Shown: one piece after another, positions 39,651 through 54,032 of the stretch
How the letters are laid out: each line of letters opens with the position of its first letter
How positions within the stretch are numbered: the first letter of the stretch is position 1
NCBI RefSeq assembly: GCF_032854445.1
Contig: NC_088298.1
Coordinates: 18,867,976-18,931,975, forward strand
Source of the DNA: Liolophura sinensis
Lineage: Eukaryota; Mollusca; Polyplacophora; Chitonida; Chitonidae
DNA length: 64,000 nucleotides
Direction of reading: 5' to 3'
Notes under the pieces: model-generated
The model's input: only the letters and a program-made list of their open reading frames with translations
What the model was told of the DNA's origin: nothing
The model's database searches: none
Made by a program: the position numbers and the translations under genes

Positions 39651-39944
39651 ATGGCCACATTTCTCCCTTACGGACTTTTTCTCTGTGTGGTGATGTTTAT
39701 TTCTACCTCAGCAAAGATCTTTCCCAAGGACTTATCTGCGGTCAAACTTCCCCATTCAGTGGTTTTAGACGAAGACGAAAAATTCCATTTGTGGTGGGAC
39801 TTTGATGAGGAGAAGGTCATCTTTGAGGTCCGCGTAAAGACGCTGGGTTACGTGGGCCTGGGACTGTCTCCTAACGGAGGCATGACCGGCGCTGACGTAA
39901 TCATGGGCGGAGTCAGTGACGTTGACGGTAAAGTCTTTTTCGAG
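39651..39944 (+). CDS. MOXD1: Monooxygenase exon 1 (signal peptide, DOMON start)
   Basis: 98 codons, donor gag|gtgagt. Starts MATFLPYGLFLCVVMF, a signal peptide, then the DOMON strand pattern FHLWWDFDEEKVIFEVRVKT and LGYVGLGLSPNGGMTGADV, typical of DBH/MOXD1. Confidence 0.96.
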
Positions 39945-42900
39945 GTGAGTTGCACACTGTAACAAAAAGACAGAAAATGTGGCGAATTTCTGACTTCTCG
40001 TTACTCCACAACTGAGAAAGCATAGTTTAGTATGCTTCTATAGTGAGGTCCTTATATATTTTATTTTTACTATCGGGCATTCTTTTCTCAATTAACTCTC
40101 TAAGACACGATGCCGCCAAGCGACAAAGCAAAATAAGTGTCCATTAAATAGTTCATTGTGAAGGAAAATACAACAAACATTGAAGTCGGCATCATCACAT
40201 ACACATCTGAACAGCTTATCTCAGAATACCTAATTTATATCACTTGCTTTTAAAACTTTCATGAATGGATCAAATGAGTTCAAATCTTTGAATTTTAAGG
40301 CGGATTTAATGAGCCAAATTGATATTTTCCTCAGAATACCTCATTTAAATCACTTATTTCTAAAACGTTCTTGGGCGGAATCAAAGGAGTTCAAATCTTT
40401 AAATTTTAAGGCGGATTTAATGAGCCAGGTTGATACTTTTTTACAACAATTACGGTATACGACATTCGTACTACGTGTATAAACCATTTATTTACGTTAA
40501 TAATTGCTCTGTGTGTACTTGGTATAATACGCTCCACGTGAAATTCTTTCCATAGCCAAGCCTAAAATTTAACAAGGCTTTTTGACGCTATCGACGCCAG
40601 ACGTAATGAATACGGATAATAAAGCCAATTGTGAAGAGTTCAGATATATAAATACATTTATCTTTATTCTTTATTGAAGAACATTTTAAGAATTATCTGA
40701 AGGCATTTAGATACTGTTTTAATCAGTGGTTTGTTTGGTGATGATGACTCCCTTAGTTTGTGTTTTATTTAAAGTATACCTTCACCTTCATATATCAATA
40801 GACATATTTATTCTCATTCTTGTTTTCTCATTTTTGACATCACTAAATTACTCGCCAAATATTCTTGAGTGCGCCGTTAAACAAAAATAAATCAGTCAAT
40901 CAATCGTAAATTAATCAGTCAATCAATCGTAAATTAATCACCTGATATGACACGCACCTTAAATGTTGAATGCTTATAGCTGGGCAGTCCTGTAGTTTTA
41001 TCCGTTGGTGTGAATCCGCTTTCTATTCAACTATAGATCTCTTATACATTAAGCGAACAGTTACGATAGCGAATGTAGGCCTATGTATTTGTGCTTGAGG
41101 TTTAACGTCGTGTTTAACAATTTTCAGTCACATGACGACAAGATGCCATTGGTTGTGTGTAAATATACTGTGTCTTCTTGTGTCAGGGCGAACCCAATGC
41201 CGTCAAAGAGCTACCGCCACTGTAACATCATGCCGAAGACACCCCACCCAGTCAAATTACACTGACACCGGGCTAACCAGTCCCGTTTCCTTACTCTAAC
41301 CTCTCAGTGGTGAGCGCTAAGCGAGACAGCAGCAGGTACCATTTTTAAAATCTTTGGTATGACCCGACCCGGGTTTGATTCCGGGGTCTTCCGACTTCAC
41401 CATAGTAAAATGACACCAGACACAAACACTAATGAGCACGTTTAATCAGCTGTATAGTGCCTTGTTGATGTTTTCATGTGCTCAGTTGTTACTCAAGAAT
41501 TTGTACTTATACAATGGCGTTAAGTTATGTGGGTGCTGGTAACCGGAGAGCCCGGCATAAACCATCGACCTTCGTCAAATTTCGAGCAAACGTTCCCACA
41601 TGTGACCATTTTGATATGAGACAAATAGTCTTTAACGCACGTGAGACTGTGTAAACGGCCCCACGGGCATCGACCACTTATTGACACTAACACCCACACG
41701 AACTGTGAGAGAAGGTGAAACAAATTGCCAGGCCGTCTTCCACTAACATGGTGTACACATTGTGCTCGCTCTGCACTTGAAAACCTGTGCACTATATTTG
41801 GAAAACTTCGTGAGTTACTTTGGAAACTATTGAATCCCTTATCGCACGTGTACCAAGCAAACACTTCAACAACTCTTGCTACTTCATAAGCATTCACATG
41901 AATAGTTAGACTAATAAAACCAACAGAAGTAAATTGAGAAGAAATCGTTTTTCGGGGTATAACTATCACACATTTCCAGTCATTGTTGTCGTCTTTTGTA
42001 CAAGGGCGCTTCATTGTGTACTTATTCAGACATCTGATTCCAGTGAGAAAGTTGTTTTAATTTTTAATTTTTCAAAACGACTATTCATCTCATTACGACA
42101 TAATTAAAGATGTACAGCCTAGAGAGTGCAAGTAGAGCATCGACGACAGAGTGGTAGACGTACAGCATAGAGAGTACAAGCAGAGCAGCGACGACAGTGT
42201 CATAGCCGTACAGCATAGAGAGGACAAGCAGAGCAGCGACGACAGTGTCATAGCCGTACAGCATAGAGAGTACAAGCAGAGCAGCGACGACAGTATGAAA
42301 GACGTACAGCATAGAGAGTACAAGCAGAACAGCGACGACAGTGTTATAGCCGTACAGCATAGAGAGTACAAGCAGAGCAGCGACGACAGTGTCATAGCCG
42401 TACAGCATAGAGAGTACAAGCAGAGCAGCGACGACAGTGTGATAGACGTACAGCATATGGAGTTCACCCAGAGCAGAGACGACAGTGTGATAGACGTACA
42501 GCATAGAGAGTACAACCAGAGCAGCGATGACAGTGTGATAGACGTACAGCATAGAGAGTACAAGCAGAGCAGAGACGACAGTGTAATAGACGTACAGCAT
42601 AGAGAGTACAAGCAGAGCAGCGACGACAGTGTGATAGACGTACAGCATAGGGAGTTTAACCAGAGCAGAGACGACTGTGTGAAAGACGTACAGCATAGAG
42701 AGTACAACCAGAGTGTTGACGACAGTGTGATAGACGTGCAGCATAGAGAGTAAGACCAGAGCAACGACGACAGTGTGATAGACGTGCAGCATAGGGAGTA
42801 CAACCAGAGTGGTGACGACAGTGTGATAGACGTGCAGCATAGAGAGTAAGACCAGAGTGGTGACGACAGTGTGATAGACGTGCAGCATAGAGAGTAAGAC

Positions 42901-45900
42901 CAGAGCAACGACGACAGTGTGATAGACGTACAGCATAGGGAGTTTAACCAGAGCAGAGACGACAGTGTGATAGACGTGCAGCATAGAGAGTAAGACCAGA
43001 GCAACGACGACAGTGTGATAGACGTGCGGCATACAGAGTACAACCAGAGCAGCTATGACAGTGTGGTAGCTGGCAAATAGTCACACCCAATTGGTGCAAT
43101 ACAGCCTCTTGTCAATTTACCTAAGCCATGGTTTTATTCTAGCTGTTCACGTAAGTTCATAAATAGTAGCAATTTACACGCCCCCTAGCATCATGGCTTA
43201 AGTAGACTTAGGTAAAAAAAAAATTTAATGTGATTGTATGTGATGCGAGTCCATTTTTACAATCACGAGTCATTTATCACAAAACCTGGACAACAACCAT
43301 AATTATGACCCATCTATGATATTAAACATGGCCAAATTTTTCTCAAATGCTTTTATTCTGTTTTATCGTAAAGGATCGTCATGCCACAGGTAAATGGGAG
43401 CCTATTTCCGACACTAGCCAAGATTGGAAGCTTATCACAGGATCTCAAAACGATACCCACACAGTCCTTCGATTCTGGAGGAAGCTGCAAACCTGCGATA
43501 AGCAAGACAGGCCTATCACGGTAAGGTACAGATAGACTGGTGGTGGATATACACTGATAAACTTGAAAACATTTTCTGAATCTAAAGATAGAATACATAC
43601 ATGCATTTTATACATTCTTGTATTCTATTATATTTCTCTACTTTATTTTGTTGGGGGGCCTCCGTGGCTCAGTCGGATAGCGCGCTAGCGCAGGGCAATG
43701 ACCCAGGAGTCTCTCACCAATGAAGCCGATGAGAGCTCAAGTCCAGCTCATGCTGGCTTCCTCTTCGGCCGTAAGTGGGAAGGTCTGCGAGCAACCCACA
43801 GATGGTCGTGGGTTTCCCCCGGACTCTGCTCGGTTTCCTCCCACCATAATGCTGGCCGCCGTCGTATAAGTGAAATATTCTTGAGTACGGCGTAAAACAC
43901 CAATCAAATGAAATGAATTTTACTTTGTTTGATTTTATTTGCTTTTTATATGCATTATTTATTCTTTTTATGTTTCTTGCTTTCTTGTGCACATTTTGTG
44001 CGGATGATTCAGAGACTTTGAGGGACTTTTAACATCAGAATACACAGAGACGCCGCTATTCAGACTATGCAGATCTGTATTTGTCTTATTGGAAGCAAAT
44101 ATTTCGGTATAAATGGTGATGTATTGCATGAAAAAACTGAAATATGGCTGAAAATAAATATATTTCGCCTGACAATATACACTCTTTCAACTAGATCATT
44201 ATTGGCCTACAGTGTGTACGTTGTAGTTTAAAACATTTTAGATGCTTAAAACGAAGTATGTGCACACGCATGAATGTTCAAGTTTACACAAGCTGTATAC
44301 CACAAGTTATCTCGTAACGCTTTCTTCACACGGTGCCTTCCAGGCGGACACGACCCGTGTGATATGGGCGTACAAGGACACGGACCTGTCTGAAAGCAGT
44401 GGGTCTTTGTACCACGGCACCCACCACAGAGGCTCCAAAAGCATATTCTTACTCAACCCACAGAGCGTGCGGCCGGAAATGCCCAAAGATGCCATAACCA
44501 TGGAATTCCGCAACAATGACGTAAGTATGTTAATTATCAGTCACCTAATAGCTTCCCCAGACCATCACAAGGTCACTCGAAGCGTGGATTCGATACCAAC
44601 CTTAGGCTGAGAATATTGAAGATTTCGTGTGTTTCCATTGTTCTGGGTACCTTGGTGGAAGTAAGCTCTTTCGTGCAGTCTTACACGAAGTTCTTTTGAG
44701 ACGACTTGCCTTCCACCAATGTGACACGTGTCACGGGTGAGACTGTTCGCCAGAAACTCGTCACGGATGGGTGGTTGTCAGGGCACCACGGTATCCTCTC
44801 CGCTATCGTTTAAGCTAAAAGGTCTTGAGTGTAGCATTAAGCAAACAGATTAATAGCTTCCCAGCGAATTCCCTCTTCGGCTGTTCTAGAACCCATGGTG
44901 GTAATGTTTATTTATTTATTTGATTGGTGTTTTACGCCTTACTCAAGAATATTTCACTACGACGGCGGCCATCACTATGGTGGGACGAAACCGGGTACAG
45001 CCCGGGGGAAACCCACAACTATTCGCAGGTTGCTTAGCGGTAATAAGCCAGATAGCTGTTTCGTCAGGTGTAAAAGATCGCACTGATCGCATAAATGTTA
45101 AAGTTGAGAACAGAGAATTCCAAGTCTAGTGTCCGCTGTTCACCCTACCTGCAAATCATGACAGCTACAAAAGCTCGATTGCTCAGGATGGTAGAAAGTT
45201 GGTTTTCTTCGTAAGTAAGACTTCTTAAACACAACAGAGGTCTGGGTGTGCCCGCTTGAAAACAAGTGACGCAGATATGTTTTCTTTCCTTTATTTTTGA
45301 ACCCCACCCAAGTTTCATCTCATATTCCCGGCGCACGCGCCCGCAGTAAACTGCACACCCTCAAGAAAAGTTGACACAGAGGGCAGAAACATGCAAACGG
45401 TCGTCCCCCGAAAATGATCTCATTCACTACTTCAGGAATGCTCTGTTTGGTCATGTTTGCAGAAGTAGGTCATCATCTGTAGGTCATATATAACGTGTAA
45501 GGATATTACCTTATGTATAGATGACCTACTTGTGAACACATAGCTTAATAGTAGTCTCCCCTGAATTGGTGGATAAGACCTTGGTAATACAAATGGTACC
45601 ATTATAACATTATACTGTTTCAAAGTAAAATTAATTATTATTGATTTAATATACCACCACTCATTGATATAATTTCGCACTACCCCTTAATAATAAATCA
45701 GCACTACGCTGTGCTGTAAATTAGCAGTGCTCGCTGCTGTAATTTAACACTACTCTCAGCTATGATTTAGCACTACTCGATGCTGTAATTTAGCACTGCT
45801 AGCTTGTATAATTTAGCGCTACTTGTTGCTGTTCTTTAGCACTACTCTGCGATAATTTAGCACTACTCTTTGGTATATGTTAGCACTACTCATTGATCTA

Positions 45901-48900
45901 ATTGTGCAGTAGTCAGTGCTATAAGTTAGTGCTTCTGTTGAAAAAAGTTAGCGCAACTCCTTGATATAATTTAGCACTATTCTCGACTATAAGTTAAAAC
46001 TACTCGTTGATATAACTTAGCAGTACTCCTTGATATAATTTAGCAGTACACAGTAACTTATTAGGTGAATGCACTTCAACGGGGTAAGTGTTACTAACTG
46101 TTGACTAAATCATTCCTGCAAAACTGTCAATAAATAACCATGTCAGCACAAATAAAGATGTGGGGCCTCCGTGGCTCAGTCGGTTAGCGCGCTAGCGCAG
46201 CATAATGACCCAGGAGCCTCTCACCAATGCGGTCGCTGTGAGTTCAAGTCCAGCTCATGCTGGCTTCCTCTCTGGCCATAAGTGGGACGTAAGTGGGAAG
46301 GTCTGCCAGCAACCTGCAGATGGTCGTGGGTTTCCCCCGGGCAGTGCCCGGTTTTCCACCCACCATAATGCCTTAAGACCGCGTCGTATAAGTGAAATAT
46401 TCTTGAGTACGGCGTAAAACACCAATCAAATAAATAAATAATAATAACAAATAAAGATGTATCAGTCAACCATTTCATCTTTGTCCACTTCCAGCTCATG
46501 GTTCCGGCTAATGATACAGTGTATTGGTGCCAAGCCTTCTCAACTCACCAATTCTCAACAAAACATCACGCCATCAAGGTAAGTACTATCTTAACAGATC
46601 CAACCACTCATCATTTCTTCACAAAATATCCCGCCACCAAGGATAGTAAACTATTAACAGATCTGCCCATTCACCAATTCTCCGCAAAAAACACCATCAA
46701 GGTGAGTACAATCTTAACACATCTACCATTTCACTTCTCCACCAAATATCCCGCCATCAAGGTGAGATCAATTTTAGCAGATCTGGCTGTTTCACTTCTG
46801 CACCAAATATCACTTAAAAGACCTACCTACTCACCTGTTCTGCACTAAACATCACGCCATCCAAATGAGTTATTTTTTATCATAAAGGTATGTCTTTTTC
46901 CTGACATACCGACGTACAAATCATTTCTTTTTATCATTATTATAAGGGGTTTTCACAAAATTGAAGGCATCCCAATATCTCGGTTCCTGACGTAAAGTTA
47001 TACTGGTTGCATTTTCTTTCATCCTTATTCATGTATTTGATCGGTGTTTTACGACGTACTCAAGAATATTTCATTTGTACTACGGCGGCCAGCATTATGG
47101 TGGAAAGAAACCGGGCAGAGCATGGGGGAAACCCACGACCGTCCGCAGGTTGCTGTCAGACCTTCGCATTAACGGCCCGCGAGGAAGCCAGCAGGAGCTG
47201 GACTTGAACTCTTTCATCCTTGTTTTAATATTACACATGCAGCACAAATATTCTTGAGTACGGTGTAAAACACCAATCAAATAAATAAATAAATAAATAA
47301 ATCTGCAAATCCATGTTGATTGTATATAGCAATATAACATCTTAAATTAATCAGTAGTTACAATAAAATTAGCTTACGAAGACTGCGGAACACAGCCTTG
47401 ACAGCTAACAAAAATACGATTATTATGGCGGACCTACTTTCATTTTCAAGTTTGAACCCGTGATCTCCAAAGGCAACGAGGGCGTGGTTCATCACTTTGT
47501 CCTGTATGCATGTCCATTAGAGACAACCAATGAAACGGCAGGAATCACCGGAAGATGTTACGACACATCAGTTCCTGTGGAATGGAGGCGATGTTTGACC
47601 AGTATTTACGCCTGGGCGATCGGAGGAGGGGTAAAGATGGCACCAATCTCAGTAAATTCAGATCAGAAAAGTTAAATGTTAAAGTTATTTCACTTCATGG
47701 ATTTTTTGATACAAGGGTTCTGATTGGTAGTTCGATTTTTTCACTCTGCATTTAAAAAGGGGCCAGTGTGCATTTATTTATTTATATGATTCGTGCTTTA
47801 CGCCATACTGAAGAATATTTCACTTATACGACGGCGGTCAGCATTAGGGTGGGAGTAAAGCGAACAGAGCCCGGGGGAAACCCACGACCATCCGCAAGTT
47901 GCTGAGAGACCTTCCCACTTACGGCCAAAGATGATGCCAGGATGAGCTGGACTTGAACTCACAGCGGCTGCACTGGTGGCGGGCTCCTCGGTCATTGCAC
48001 CGTGCTGGCTTGCTCACTCCTCGGCCACGGAGGCCCCCCGGGGCGTTAGTGGGTGCACTATAAATATGTAACGCGTCAAATCTTGTGAGCGTCAAAACCA
48101 ATATATGTTGCCTTCAGGATCTGAATTTACCTATATTGGGTATGATTAGCTGGTCGCTGATGATTTACGACGCTGTTGACATGACCTGTTTGACTCAATC
48201 AAAGTGAGAGGTCAAATGACTTTTTCTTTAACTCATGCAAGAAAAACATGCACTACGGTAGGCGTAGCACATAAATATATGCTTATTTTGTCACCTTTAG
48301 TGTATGTGAATTGACGCGTAGAATCATGTCATAAAATGTAAGATCCCAGTATTGTTACCACGAATTATTGTGGTTGACTGGAAGTACGACAGGACTGATT
48401 ATATTAAACGCCAACACTAAACTGTGGGAAATCATTCCCAATTTTTCATATTCAAAATTACCTCAAAATGTTAGATGTAGGCGCACTTATTTAATTGAAT
48501 GATCTGACTGGGCTTTTTTTATCGCCGTGCTAGATATATTTTACTTGTGAGAAAAGGTTTATTCTGTCTGACAGATTTAGGTAGCCTGGAGAGAACCGCC
48601 GAACATTGAGGCTAAATCAGCCATAGCTGGATTTGAACCTCGACTTCGTTGGTCATTCAGCAAAAGCCATCAACTACACGGCCCAGTATAAAATACATAA
48701 TCACAAATTGTAATACTGACACATCTGTCGTGCACAAAGCATTTTGCTATCTGCGGCATCGTTCTCAAAGCTTCAGGCAACGTTACTTCTAAACACAGGA
48801 CAGTAAAATACAATTTTCATTACGTCATGGTCTGGAAATTAAGTAACCTGCAGTCGTGACTTCAATTATGAAACCTCCGAATGCCGTTTTAAGGAAGACA

Positions 48901-51900
48901 AAGTTGGGGTCAGGGAGGGGAAATAATCTGGTCCCGAGTTGCCAGTAAGTTTATCGCCGACAACATTTCCGAAAACTATTGACAGAAAATAAACAGACAA
49001 TACCGGGGTAAAAAAGAGATATTTAATATGTCCCAAAACATTTCGTTTATATTTTGACTTGTTTTTATTTTTCAGTTTACTTGTGGCCATAATCTTCTTT
49101 TTCATGACTTTTGCTTTATTTTTAGATTTTTTCATGACCATATCGAAAGCCATTTACCGCCTCGTGTTTTCAGCCTGTTCTCGCCACGATATGGCTGAAA
49201 TATTGCCGACTTGGCGTAAAGCCATGATCATTCATCCATTAATTTCTTTTCATGAATTTTATACTAACATACACATTTCTTAATTAGACATAGAACCGAA
49301 TCCCAACTGGTAGTGGTATTCTTATTTTTAGCCATTTTATCTACCGGAACACGTGGGCTACCCCTTTGGATCTGAAGGCGACCCCAAACTTGTTTTACTG
49401 GAGACCCACTTTGATAACCCGGACAAGCGGTCAGGTAAGCTGTACGCGGATTAGTCGCAATTATTTACTTTCAGTTTATTTGAGTCATTCATGTTTTTTC
49501 ATCTTAATCAATGATATTCCATTTATATCAAAACCATATGTTTGCTGCGTGAAGTAAATTGAGCAGGCCAGGATAAAACGATTTTTTTTTTTTTTTTTTT
49601 TTTTGATTGGTGTTTTACACCGTACTCAAGAATATTTCACTTATACGACGGCGGTCAGCATTATGGTGGGTGGAAACCCACCCGGGGGAAACCCACGACC
49701 ATCCACAGGTTGCTGGCAGACCTTACCACTTACGGCCGGAGAGGAAGCCAGCATGAGCTGGACTTGAACTCACAACGACCGCATTGGTGAGAGGCTCCTG
49801 GGTCATTATGCTGCGCTAGCGCGCTAACTGACTGAGCCACGGAGGCCCCAGGATAAAACGAGCGCATCTCTCTGTGAAACAGCATAGTAAACCTAATGAT
49901 TTACCGGAAACGTGCATCCGATTATGAGCTAACTGGATTTGATCATACAACCACGTTGATCTTAAAGGAAAATGCCTGAGAAATGACCTCGCCCATCAGA
50001 CGGAATACATTTTGGAGAAATAATCACGTAATTTCATGCTTGGTGTGAACTGGATTTGGAGTCCTCCTTTTCCAGAGGTCAAAGAATTTTTCAATTCAAT
50101 CACATTAATTGATGAACGTCGGTTGTGTCTTACCCCGAAAGTAACGTGAAATGGCTTAAGAAATGGCTTCCTACACAATGAGTGACAAGCCATTTCTAGT
50201 TTGGTGTCCTCTTGTATTAAGCCATGAAATGTTCAGGTCCTCTTGAATTAAGCCATGAAATGTTCAGGTCCTCTTGAATTAAGAGATGAGATGTCCAGGT
50301 CCTCTTGTATTAAGCCATGAAATGTCCAGGCCCTCTTGTATCAAGTGATGAAATGTTCAGGCCATTTTATATTAAACGATGAAATGTCAAGGTCCTCTTG
50401 TATTAAGCGATGAAATGTCCAGGCCCTCTTGCATCAAGTGATGAAATGTTCAGGCCATTTTATATTAAACGATGAGATGTCCAGGCCCTCTTGTGTTAAG
50501 CCATGAAATGTCCAGGCCCTCTTGTATCAAGTGATGAAATGTTCAGGCCATTTTATATTAAACAATGAGATGTCCAGGTCCTCTTGTATTAAGCGATGAA
50601 ATGTCCAGATCCTCTTGTATCAAGTGATGAAATGTTCAGGCCATTTTATATTAAACAATGAGATGTCCAGGTCCTCTTGTATTAAGCGATGAAATGTCCA
50701 GGTCCTCTTGTATCAAGTGATGAAATGTTCAGGCCATTTTGTATTCAGTGATGAAATATCCAGGCCCTCTTGTATCAAGTGATGAAATGGTCAGGCCATT
50801 TTATATTAAACGATGAGATGTCCAGGTTCTCTTGTATTAAACCATGAAATGTCCAGGCCCTCTTGCATCAAGTGATGAAATGTTCAGGCCATTTTATATT
50901 AAATGATAAGATATCCAGGCCCTCTTGTGTTAAGCCATGAAATGTCCAGGCCCTCTTGTATCAAGTGATGAAATGTTCAGGCCATTTTATATTAAACAAT
51001 GAGATGTCCAGGTCCTCTTGTATTAAGCGATGAAATGTCCAGATCCTCTTGTATCAAGTGATGAAATGTTCAGGCCATTTTGTATTCAGCGATGAAATGT
51101 CCAGGTCCTCTTGTATTAAGCGATGAAATGTCCAGGCCCTCTTGTATCAAGTGATGAAATGGTCAGGCCATTTTATATTAAACGATGAGATGTCCAGGTC
51201 CTCTTGTATTAAACCATGAAATTTCCAGGCCCTCTTGCATCAAGTGATGAAATGTTCAGGCCATTTTATATTAAACGATGAAATGTCCAGGTCCTCTTGT
51301 ATTAAGCGATGAAATATCCAGGCCCTCTTGTATCAATTTATTTATTTATTTGATTGGTGCTTTACGCCGTACTCAAGAATATTTCACTTATACGGCGGCG
51401 GCCAGCATTATGGTGGGAGAAAACCGGGCAGAGCCTGGGGGAAACTCACGACCATCCGCAGGTTGCTGGCAGACCTTCCCACGTACGGTCTTGTATCAAG
51501 TGATGAAATGTTCAGGCCATTTTGTATTCAGCGATGAAATGTTCCGGCCATGTTGTATTAAGCGATGAAATGTCCAGGCCCTCTTGTATCAAGTGATGAA
51601 ATGTTCAGGCCATTTTATATTAAATGATGAAATTTTCCGGCAATGTTGTATTAAGCCATGAAGTGTCCAGGCCCTCTTGTATCAAGTGATGAAATGTTCA
51701 GGCCATTTTGTATTAAGCGATGAAATTTTCCGGCCATGTTGTATTAAGTGATGGGTCTTGGGTTTCAACCAGGCTTTGCCCTCTATTTTCCCATCATTAT
51801 GTTGGCCGCCGTTGCATAAGTGTCATTTACTAATCTTCTCTGCAGATGTAGTGGACTCGTCTGGTTTGAGGCTCACCTTAACCCCTTCCCTGCGTCAACA

Positions 51901-54032
51901 CGATGCTGGCACTCTGGTTGTGGGGATGACATCATCACCGTCTCAAGTTATACCGCCATTTGCTGATGACTTTAGAATCGACGGACATTGTGTTCCTGAG
52001 TGCTTAGCAAAGGTGTATAACACATTCCTTTTTAAGAGCCATTCGTCACTGATTGGCTGGGGCATCTCGGTTTCTCGGTGTGTACGACCAATCAGATGGA
52101 GTTTCCGTTTTCTGCTCTTGCTAGGTGAACTGCAGGTTATGTCAGGGGGTTTGTCAGGAACCTGTCGAAGGTCGATGGACTCAACAGGGTTATGGCAAGT
52201 TTCCTCAACTAATAAACCAAAACGCCACACCACTTTCTCTCAAAAACAAAACCACGACCAAATAAAAAGAAACACGAGACAAATGTTTCTGGTTATAGAT
52301 CACTGACTTACTTAATAGTCAGCGTCTAGTTTGTTTCATTTTAGTTTATTTATCATTTTATCACAGAAATTGGTCTTGTAATAATAACCAAACATTGTGT
52401 TAATATAAATGTTACTAAAGTCTTATTGTGATCAAAATTATCTTACCATAATGACGAAAAAATCTAAACTCGGCTTCGTCCAATACCATCTTGGGTTTGT
52501 TTGTACACAAATACCGAACAATAGAAAACTCATCACTTACTGTTCCGTATATCCAGCCGAAGAAGTCAGACATCAGTCAGTATGCTCCTATGGCAACGCT
52601 GTGACATCACAGAGCATACAAGCAAGTGTAGGCATTGCGTTACTCAACTAATTAGCTTATTTCCAGTGGTATTGTTTTGATTGGTCAATGAATGTTCTTA
52701 ATTGGCAGATTTGAAAAACCACATGTGTTAAGTGCACGCATTAAAGTGACAGAAATCTAACAATGAAGAAAGTTTGATCAGAATGGTAAAAGAAAGCTAT
52801 GAGTAAAACTACTTTCATCTTTTTTTTTGGATTTCATTGAGATAACAGCATTAACTGGACCTTATGTGCAATATAACTGGTGTTTAGGTACTCTGGCGTG
52901 ATGTTAGAATTCTATCATCCTAAGATGATTAACATTTTAATTGTTGAAATATAGCCTATATTACACACGAGTAAAAGGTTTTTTAAAATTTTATTCGCAA
53001 AAATTGTAATAGGTGTTTCTGTTTTGCTCCCCCACGTGTCAGGGCATGGCACCCAGGTCTTCTATCAAAGTATTCGCTGGGTTCCTACACGCCCATCTCC
53101 TAGGTGTCGCTATCAAATTTCGTCATTTCCGGAAAGGAGTTGAACTGCAACCAATTATCAAAGACGACAACTACGACTTCAATTTCCAGGAAACCAGGAT
53201 GTTACAGAAGGAGGTCGAGATTCAAGCTGTAAGTTGTGGAGAATCCAAGTAAAAATTTGTGGGAATCCATGTGAAATTTGGTGGGAATCTGAGTGAAATT
53301 TTTGGAATATTTGTGGGAATCTGAGTGAAAAGTTGTGGGAATCTGAGTGAAAATTTGTGGGAATCTGAGTGAAAATTTGTGGGAATCCATTTGAAAATTT
53401 GTGGAAATCTGAGTGAAAATTTGTGGAAATCTGAGTGAAAATTTGTGGGAATCCAAGTGAAAGTTGGTGGGAATCAAAGCGAAAATTTTTCGGAATGCAA
53501 GCAAGAATTTGTTGGAATCCATGCAAAAGTTTGAGGGAATCCAAGCAAAAATTTGTGATAACAAAGGTCAAACTTTTGTGAATTCAGAAGGTAATTCATG
53601 AGAACCCAAATCAAAAGTTATAAAAGTGAAAAAAGTCAGGAGTCCGTGGGAAAATTTGCAGGACTCAAAATCAGGTTTTCGTGCTCTGCAGTTCAGGTAT
53701 GTCAAACCAGAAATCTAGCTTAAGAAGTATACCTACCTGTACATCAGGTAAATTAATTACACTGGGTGTTGCGCCTGCTTTATTTAAAGCCGTTTTTTTT
53801 GTGCAAAAAATTTGTATGGTACAATGTAAGCCTCTTGGAGCCATACATTGCTCACTGGTGCCATTTCTCCATCCCTGATGCCATTTGGTCCCTAACCAAT
53901 CAGTATGCAGCTTCGGCTGTTGCATTAAGTAAGGTCATTTGGTAAGTGCTTCCAGAAGGGCGGTGATACACTACGCGCGCTCCGGTTTCCCTTCTGGTTA
54001 ATCCGGCCGTCGTCATACACACACACATATAT

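Follow-up and report, generated by a model that had tools for sequence, protein, structure and literature searches.

In the chiton Liolophura sinensis, the end of one exon of a monooxygenase gene, its splice donor and the beginning of the following intron are copied in tandem, and the question raised by this locus is whether the multiplied donors are put to use in splicing or are simply removed together with the intron. The locus lies in a stretch of 64,000 nucleotides on contig C4 (18867976-18931975; hereafter the window), in which a Pfam search matched the domains DOMON (PF03351), Cu2_monooxygen (PF01082) and Cu2_monoox_C (PF03712); on these domains within the 64-kb window, the host gene is assigned as a copper monooxygenase of the DBH/MOXD1 type. 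The gene is outlined by its domain matches (Table 1), and its exons are numbered as in the initial annotation of the window. Exon 4 (LMVPANDTVYWCQAFSTHQFSTKHHAIK) matches PF01082 with an E-value of 2.7e-6 and 28 bits, slightly below Pfam's cut-off of 30, and exons 4 and 5 together match human dopamine beta-hydroxylase (DBH, 4zel) in phmmer with an E-value of 9.9e-14. The alignment to the human enzyme is gapless at the position of intron 4, and the homology of exon 4 stops at 46578. Exon 5 (FEPVISKGNEGVVHH...AIGGG), the end of which was placed by analogy with the exon 5 ends of paralogues and by reading the sequence, contains a VHH pair that we take to be the CuH pair; another HH is found at the C-terminal end of exon 4 (KHHAIK).

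The array was detected by TRF at 46543-46811 with a period of 60-63 and 70% matches, or as a 120-bp dimer with 79%. Its unit comprises 36 exonic nt, the donor and some 24-27 intronic nt, and the tandem units span a real exon/intron boundary, the exon being recognised by homology and the copies downstream of copy 1 by alignment. The initial annotation had described the end of exon 4, the donor and the start of intron 4 as tandemly copied, and this holds, with four full and two damaged copies now distinguished. The boundaries at 46579, 46642, 46702 and 46762 share one phase, and the splice signal is present in many, not all, units, GT being kept in copies 3 and 4, lost in copies 2 and 6 and deleted in copy 5. 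Between any two of the four full copies, 15-36% of the exon-like and 17-33% of the intron-like sites differ. A search of the whole genome (609,464,459 bases in 632 contigs) returned no matches beyond the array itself. Exon 4 and the array are flanked by inverted repeat copies, SINE-like by eye, at 46240-46454 and 47012-47211, the arms being 79-85% complementary; inverted repeat pairs around an exon can promote exon skipping or circular RNA. An assembly artefact at the array is unlikely, because the HiFi reads of the published Liolophura japonica assembly, with a mean of 8.3 kb according to the accessible text of PMC11068029, far exceed the array length.

Table 1. Features of the monooxygenase gene and of its donor-anchored arrays (positions in the window)
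Feature	Position	Strand	Basis
DOMON parts	near 39774-39956 and 43368-43520		Pfam PF03351
Cu2_monooxygen	exons 4 and 5, also 49326-49430		Pfam PF01082
Exon 4	46495..46578	+	PF01082, phmmer, acceptor CCACTTCCAG, donor GTAAGT
Copy 1: last 36 nt of exon 4, authentic donor, intron 4 start	46543..46605	+	TRF, copy alignment
Authentic donor GTAAGT, 7.90 bits	46579..46584	+	donor matrix; intron position common to 9/9 paralogues
Copy 2; boundary 46642 without GT (GATAGT)	46606..46665	+	copy alignment
Copy 3; copied donor 46702, AAG/GTGAGT, 8.32 bits, +123 nt	46666..46725	+	copy alignment, matrix
Copy 4; copied donor 46762, AAG/GTGAGA, 6.71 bits, +183 nt	46726..46785	+	copy alignment, matrix
Copy 5; boundary deleted	46786..46830	+	copy alignment
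Copy 6; degenerate boundary CCAA/ATGAGT at 46865	46831..46893	+	copy alignment
First stop in exon 4 read-through frame	46846..46848	+	translation
Exon 5, with VHH pair	47451..47630	+	Pfam PF01082, E 1.7e-16
Cu2_monoox_C	53016-53225		Pfam PF03712
Second donor-anchored array, 22-bp unit (GTGAAAATTTGTGGGAATCTGA)	53229..53557	+	TRF, reading; exon by PF03712

Donor-like GT sites had been noted at 46702 and 46762, and both indeed score as strong (8.32 and 6.71 bits) in a donor matrix. Among the 4,097 plus-strand GT sites of the window, the score of 46702 is reached by two and that of 46762 by ten, themselves included, and 46702 outscores all 17 scored donors of the paralogues (8 of exon 4 and 9 of exon 5). 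The splice donor has been multiplied, as the initial annotation stated, and two of the copies would be strong enough for use or for competition.

The paralogues of the gene, taken as the nine loci in which both exon 4 and exon 5 were detected, share the position of intron 4 in phase 0 throughout, and none of them carries an array at the exon 4 boundary. Weaker matches at C4:23.17 Mb, C6:60.3 Mb, C8 and C11:14.5 Mb were left out of this set, and for one member (L020) exon 4 was identified by eye from the printed frames, its donor being left unscored. The closest paralogue, at C4:19552617-19553340 (L003, L012), lies on the window's contig at a distance of about 0.64 Mb and has an exon 4 without an array. 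Repeats are found elsewhere in intron 4 of L018 (tandem repeats) and of L012 (a dinucleotide run). By reading, one repeat of about 105 bp in intron 4 of L018 (two copies, L018:1386-1596) stops about 7 nt before exon 5, near the acceptor.

A second array in the same gene is anchored at a donor as well. The Cu2_monoox_C exon ends with ...KEVEIQA and is followed by GTAAGTTGTGGAGAATCCAA, which is both the start of the intron and the first unit, and the units run in register from intron base +1 (53229) towards 53557. The authentic donor there scores 1.81 and the copied GT positions, among those listed, about -1. Tandem repeats altogether cover 13.4% of the window (8,570 of 64,000 bases in 29 arrays, TRF rows being merged by hand). 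One of them, a 48-bp array of 20 copies at 42108-43069, is overlain by an open frame of 331 aa on the minus strand (42085-43080), again an open frame with a period divisible by three.

We consider it likely that the exon 4 array is a degenerate, near-neutral "mirage", as tandemly copied exon/intron boundaries are called in amphioxus, lying in intron 4 and leaving splicing to the first donor at 46579. Slippage or unequal exchange would probably have produced a tandem duplication of a short stretch across the exon 4 donor, and a duplication of this kind would keep the first exon-donor junction intact. We infer that splicing takes place from 46579 only, this upstream-most donor still defining exon 4, and that the copies are spliced out with the intron and are nearly neutral. 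The persistence of two copied donors may reflect incomplete decay or past homogenisation with the selected first unit. This reading agrees with the end of exon 4 homology at 46578, with the intron position and phase common to all nine paralogues, none of which has an array at that boundary, and with the second array, which starts at intron base +1 of another exon and whose copies no longer appear to score as donors. Against it stands the score of 46702, slightly above that of the authentic donor, so that use of 46702 or 46762 is conceivable; where donors are duplicated, intron-proximal sites are often favoured.

The exon 4 locus is probably one of a larger group of minisatellites that are anchored at donors in the chiton genome. 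Motifs were counted on both strands, a triplet being defined as tandem motifs with gaps of 40-70 (40-72 for the acceptor). The donor motif MAGGTRAGT gave 33,494 singles and 1,557 triplets, or 46.5 triplets per 1,000 singles, as compared with 24,251 and 368 (15.2 per 1,000) for the same motif reversed, 22,980 and 428 (18.6 per 1,000) for the killed donor MAGGARAGT, which differs by one base, and 28,700 and 267 (9.3 per 1,000) for the killed donor reversed. The donor triplet rate is thus 2.5 to 5 times that of its three like-composed controls, and donor pairs number 2,492 versus 653 for the reversed motif. Two-fold differences between motifs must be regarded as ordinary, since a gap of this size already separates the killed donor from its reversal. 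Over the whole genome, triplets of the acceptor YTTTYCAGR (82,206 singles, 408 triplets, 5.0 per 1,000) were without excess over the reversed acceptor (46,361 singles, 256 triplets, 5.5 per 1,000), and a general boundary effect that would also yield acceptor-anchored arrays was rejected.

Triplet matches are not independent, one array giving many, and distinct arrays were counted by eye. Among the matches listed, the same 80.9 Mb of contig C1 held 29 donor, 8 killed-donor and 13 acceptor arrays, and the number of donor arrays exceeded that of killed-donor arrays with a one-sided p of 0.012 given the singles. Scaling by length or by matches suggests about 200-450 donor arrays in the genome. Finding arrays by a motif favours those that keep the motif, a bias that the control motifs share; the exon 4 array itself does not show up among the triplets, having lost its second donor. 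One donor array, L046 near C1:54809267-54809438, also came up, on the other strand, in the search with the acceptor pattern.

Whether donor arrays begin at exons was examined in 30 of them, 28 of the 29 counted by eye among the matches listed (C1 to 80.9 Mb; the array at C1 49.776 Mb was left out) together with L053 and L054, which were chosen from the single-motif listing for their regular series. In L025 and L035 the start of the array lacked an ORF of 20 aa, and the other 28 arrays were tested with 30 ORFs, the ORF being chosen by the analyst where several frames were open. With Pfam at E up to 1e-3, an exon ran into the first unit in L021 (ankyrin, E 9.8e-12), L027 (DUF3535, E 1.2e-5, slightly below Pfam's cut-off), L040 (GH31, E 6.3e-14) and L053 (antistasin, E 1.8e-7). 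Four ORFs picked by eye as exon-like were searched against PDB, and matches were obtained for L050 (cullin-1, E 9e-14, ending at LLIQ), L037 (ABCC transporter, E 6e-17, ending at NMVQ) and L038 (choline transporter, E 5.3e-14, ending at FTMT), while L052 gave no PDB match. In L054, for which Pfam gave no match, a 126-bp unit is repeated ten times (L054:1285-2560) after an exon-like stretch that has a clear acceptor and terminates as SLSQEISELKREK/GTAAGT, and its motif columns are fully conserved.

As controls served 22 killed-donor arrays with 30 ORFs, for which Pfam gave no match at 1e-3 (the best being 0.045) and PDB none among four ORFs picked by eye. A recognisable exon thus runs into the first unit in 7 of 28 donor arrays versus 0 of 22 control arrays by Pfam or PDB (Fisher p 0.014, the PDB-tested ORFs, four per side, being picked by eye), and in 4 of 28 versus 0 of 22 by Pfam alone, which is not significant (p 0.12). 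In the remaining 21 donor arrays no homology was found in these searches, and short exons would look alike. The control set has its own peculiarities: L056, L059 and L061 were tested solely at the opposite-strand end; for the first eight controls, the array with the highest score at the locus was taken, and in L056 this is another array than that of the motif; the array of L072 touches the locus edge; a repeat family at C4:12.5-12.6 Mb was excluded; and the control listing extends to C4, the donor listing being confined to C1. The unit of L056 has both GGTGAG and GGTAAG and resembles a decayed donor array, so that the killed-donor motif picks up donor arrays to some extent. These homologies establish an exon origin for some donor arrays, not for the class as a whole.

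If the first donor wins and duplications across an acceptor, which would lengthen the mRNA more often, are removed, the survival of arrays at donors rather than acceptors would be explained. Tolerance at donors alone does not account for the excess over background; candidate causes are that arrays form more readily at donors or that the copies are homogenised with the first, selected unit.

A decoy role, in which the extra donors would bind U1 and tune splicing or keep premature 3' end formation away from the start of the intron, draws some support from the preponderance of donor over acceptor motifs in tandem triplets. In the exon 4 array, the conservation of the donor 9-mer ranks 20th among the 52 windows of the unit and is not a peak. 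Across arrays, donor columns exceeded other columns by a mean of +0.019 (19 positive; 28 of 30 arrays usable), whereas the motif columns of control arrays gave -0.005 (6 positive; 19 of 22 usable), with p 0.07 for the difference with all 22 controls and p 0.10 with the first eight; L027, L042, L058, L059 and L074 were dropped, their consensus being unusable. This trend is a weak hint that donor columns may be slightly better kept under constraint, but it is not significant, and selection on the copied donors was rejected as an explanation. Furthermore, two of the five downstream boundaries in the exon 4 array have lost GT and one is deleted, and the copied donor positions listed for the second array score below zero, all of which makes a decoy role unlikely.

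The initial annotation had suggested, besides a pool of decoy donors, that the copies create isoforms, exon 4 gaining 41 or 61 residues just ahead of the CuH histidine pair. The additions of 123 and 183 nt are stop-free as claimed, the frame staying open to 46845, both donors are strong and in phase, and in human IFI6 repeat units do serve as alternative donors (PMC4526556, as far as its accessible text goes). Read-through from exon 4 meets no stop for 89 codons, as compared with 1-39 codons past the donor in the nine paralogues (the value of 1 codon, in L020, being read by eye). The insertion point lies 13 residues upstream of the VHH pair (FEPVISKGNEGVVHH), and the insertion would interrupt a block that aligns without gaps to human DBH. 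When copies were mutated neutrally from the unit consensus, the three downstream full copies were all free of stops in 35-47% of runs and at least two of the three donors were strong in 26-29%; both occurred jointly in only 9-13%, which counts against neutrality. Variable columns numbered 10, 8 and 10, of 20 each, at codon positions 1, 2 and 3, and pairwise dN/dS between copies, each pair offering about 13 synonymous sites, was 0.22-1.03. The copies show no sign of coding constraint, and coding selection was rejected, since codon positions, dN/dS and the stop simulation all failed to support it; with tests of such low power, weak selection on the copies would still be compatible.

Nor is frame keeping a property of the class, because the base periods of 29 other donor arrays (taken by hand from TRF rows with multiples reduced to the basic unit, L025 left out) are spread evenly modulo 3, with 10, 10 and 9 arrays. 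The frame keeping seen by the initial annotation would accordingly appear, as part of the mirage reading considered likely above, to be chance: stop-free copies are common under neutrality, codon positions vary alike and class periods are unbiased. With the insertion falling inside the gapless DBH block and no array at the boundary in the nine paralogues, the creation of isoforms is decidedly improbable.

That an unrelated intronic satellite merely happens to contain AAGGTRAGT is, even in a window so rich in tandem repeats, hardly credible and was rejected, as the first unit holds 36 coding nt of exon 4, the copies align to these and are homologous to exon 4, and the sole genome match of the array is itself. 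Just as far-fetched is a step towards a new intron or exon, in which a boundary copy would be recruited as an exon on the model proposed for amphioxus globins (PMC3087553, accessible text); the copies retain exon-like sequence, but nothing in the exon 4 array points to such recruitment.

The interest would lie in the class rather than in the single locus. As a tentative generalisation, with the odds somewhat against it, minisatellites of this mollusc genome could arise or persist preferentially at 5' splice sites but not at 3' splice sites, and could do so in hundreds of genes, with the exon 4 locus as an old member. If this is true, either tandem duplication is stimulated where donors are spliced or transcribed, or exons robustly ignore long series of near-identical downstream donors; under the second option, donors, and not acceptors, can be multiplied at no cost. 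Confirmation of the class would give the chiton many genes with a run of near-identical strong donors behind an exon and make it a natural experiment on the choice of the spliceosome among equal 5' splice sites and would bear on why donors, apparently not acceptors, get multiplied. The class is testable soon, because RNA data from five tissues, namely digestive gland, foot, gill, gonad and heart, exist, having been used to build the gene models of Liolophura japonica (PMC11068029, accessible text).

The initial annotation called a repeat that multiplies a splice donor unusual; boundary minisatellites are known as amphioxus mirages, and the repeat donors of human IFI6 are used. The IFI6 (6-16) minisatellite has multiple splice donors and a unit of 12 bp. 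It was reportedly described by Turri et al. 1995. Its downstream repeat units are used as donors, giving rise to isoforms (PMC4526556, accessible text). The chiton minisatellite likewise repeats a splice donor, but with a unit of 60-63 bp and with predicted copied donors, whereas the IFI6 repeat donors are used in mRNA. In the potato RdRp gene, an intron was gained by tandem genomic duplication, as the accessible part of PMC4974935 describes; this too is a tandem duplication inside a gene and linked to introns, but the chiton copies sit within an existing intron. A minisatellite linked to alternative splicing is known from C. elegans, where the repeats lie in introns and, from the accessible text of PMC4039745, are seemingly not copied boundaries. 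Topic searches of an open-access library turned up neither mirages in molluscs nor a described bias towards donors.

The original paper on mirages is said to be that of Canestro 2002. The accessible texts of PMC3087553 and PMC3902484 describe amphioxus mirages as minisatellite-like tandem duplications of exon/intron boundaries in the genes for Adh3, troponin C, the globins BflGb6 and BflGb9, and PGBD5, with units of 10-160 bp, many but not all of which carry splice signals, and report them as leaving regular splicing undisturbed. The units of the chiton array likewise span an exon/intron boundary and have splice signals in some units. In contrast, the host is a chiton and not a cephalochordate, the array is strongly diverged, and the chiton excess is found at donors and not acceptors, whereas amphioxus mirages are reported at both boundaries. 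By this comparison, the exon 4 locus looks like a decayed chiton example of the kind of repeat described in amphioxus.
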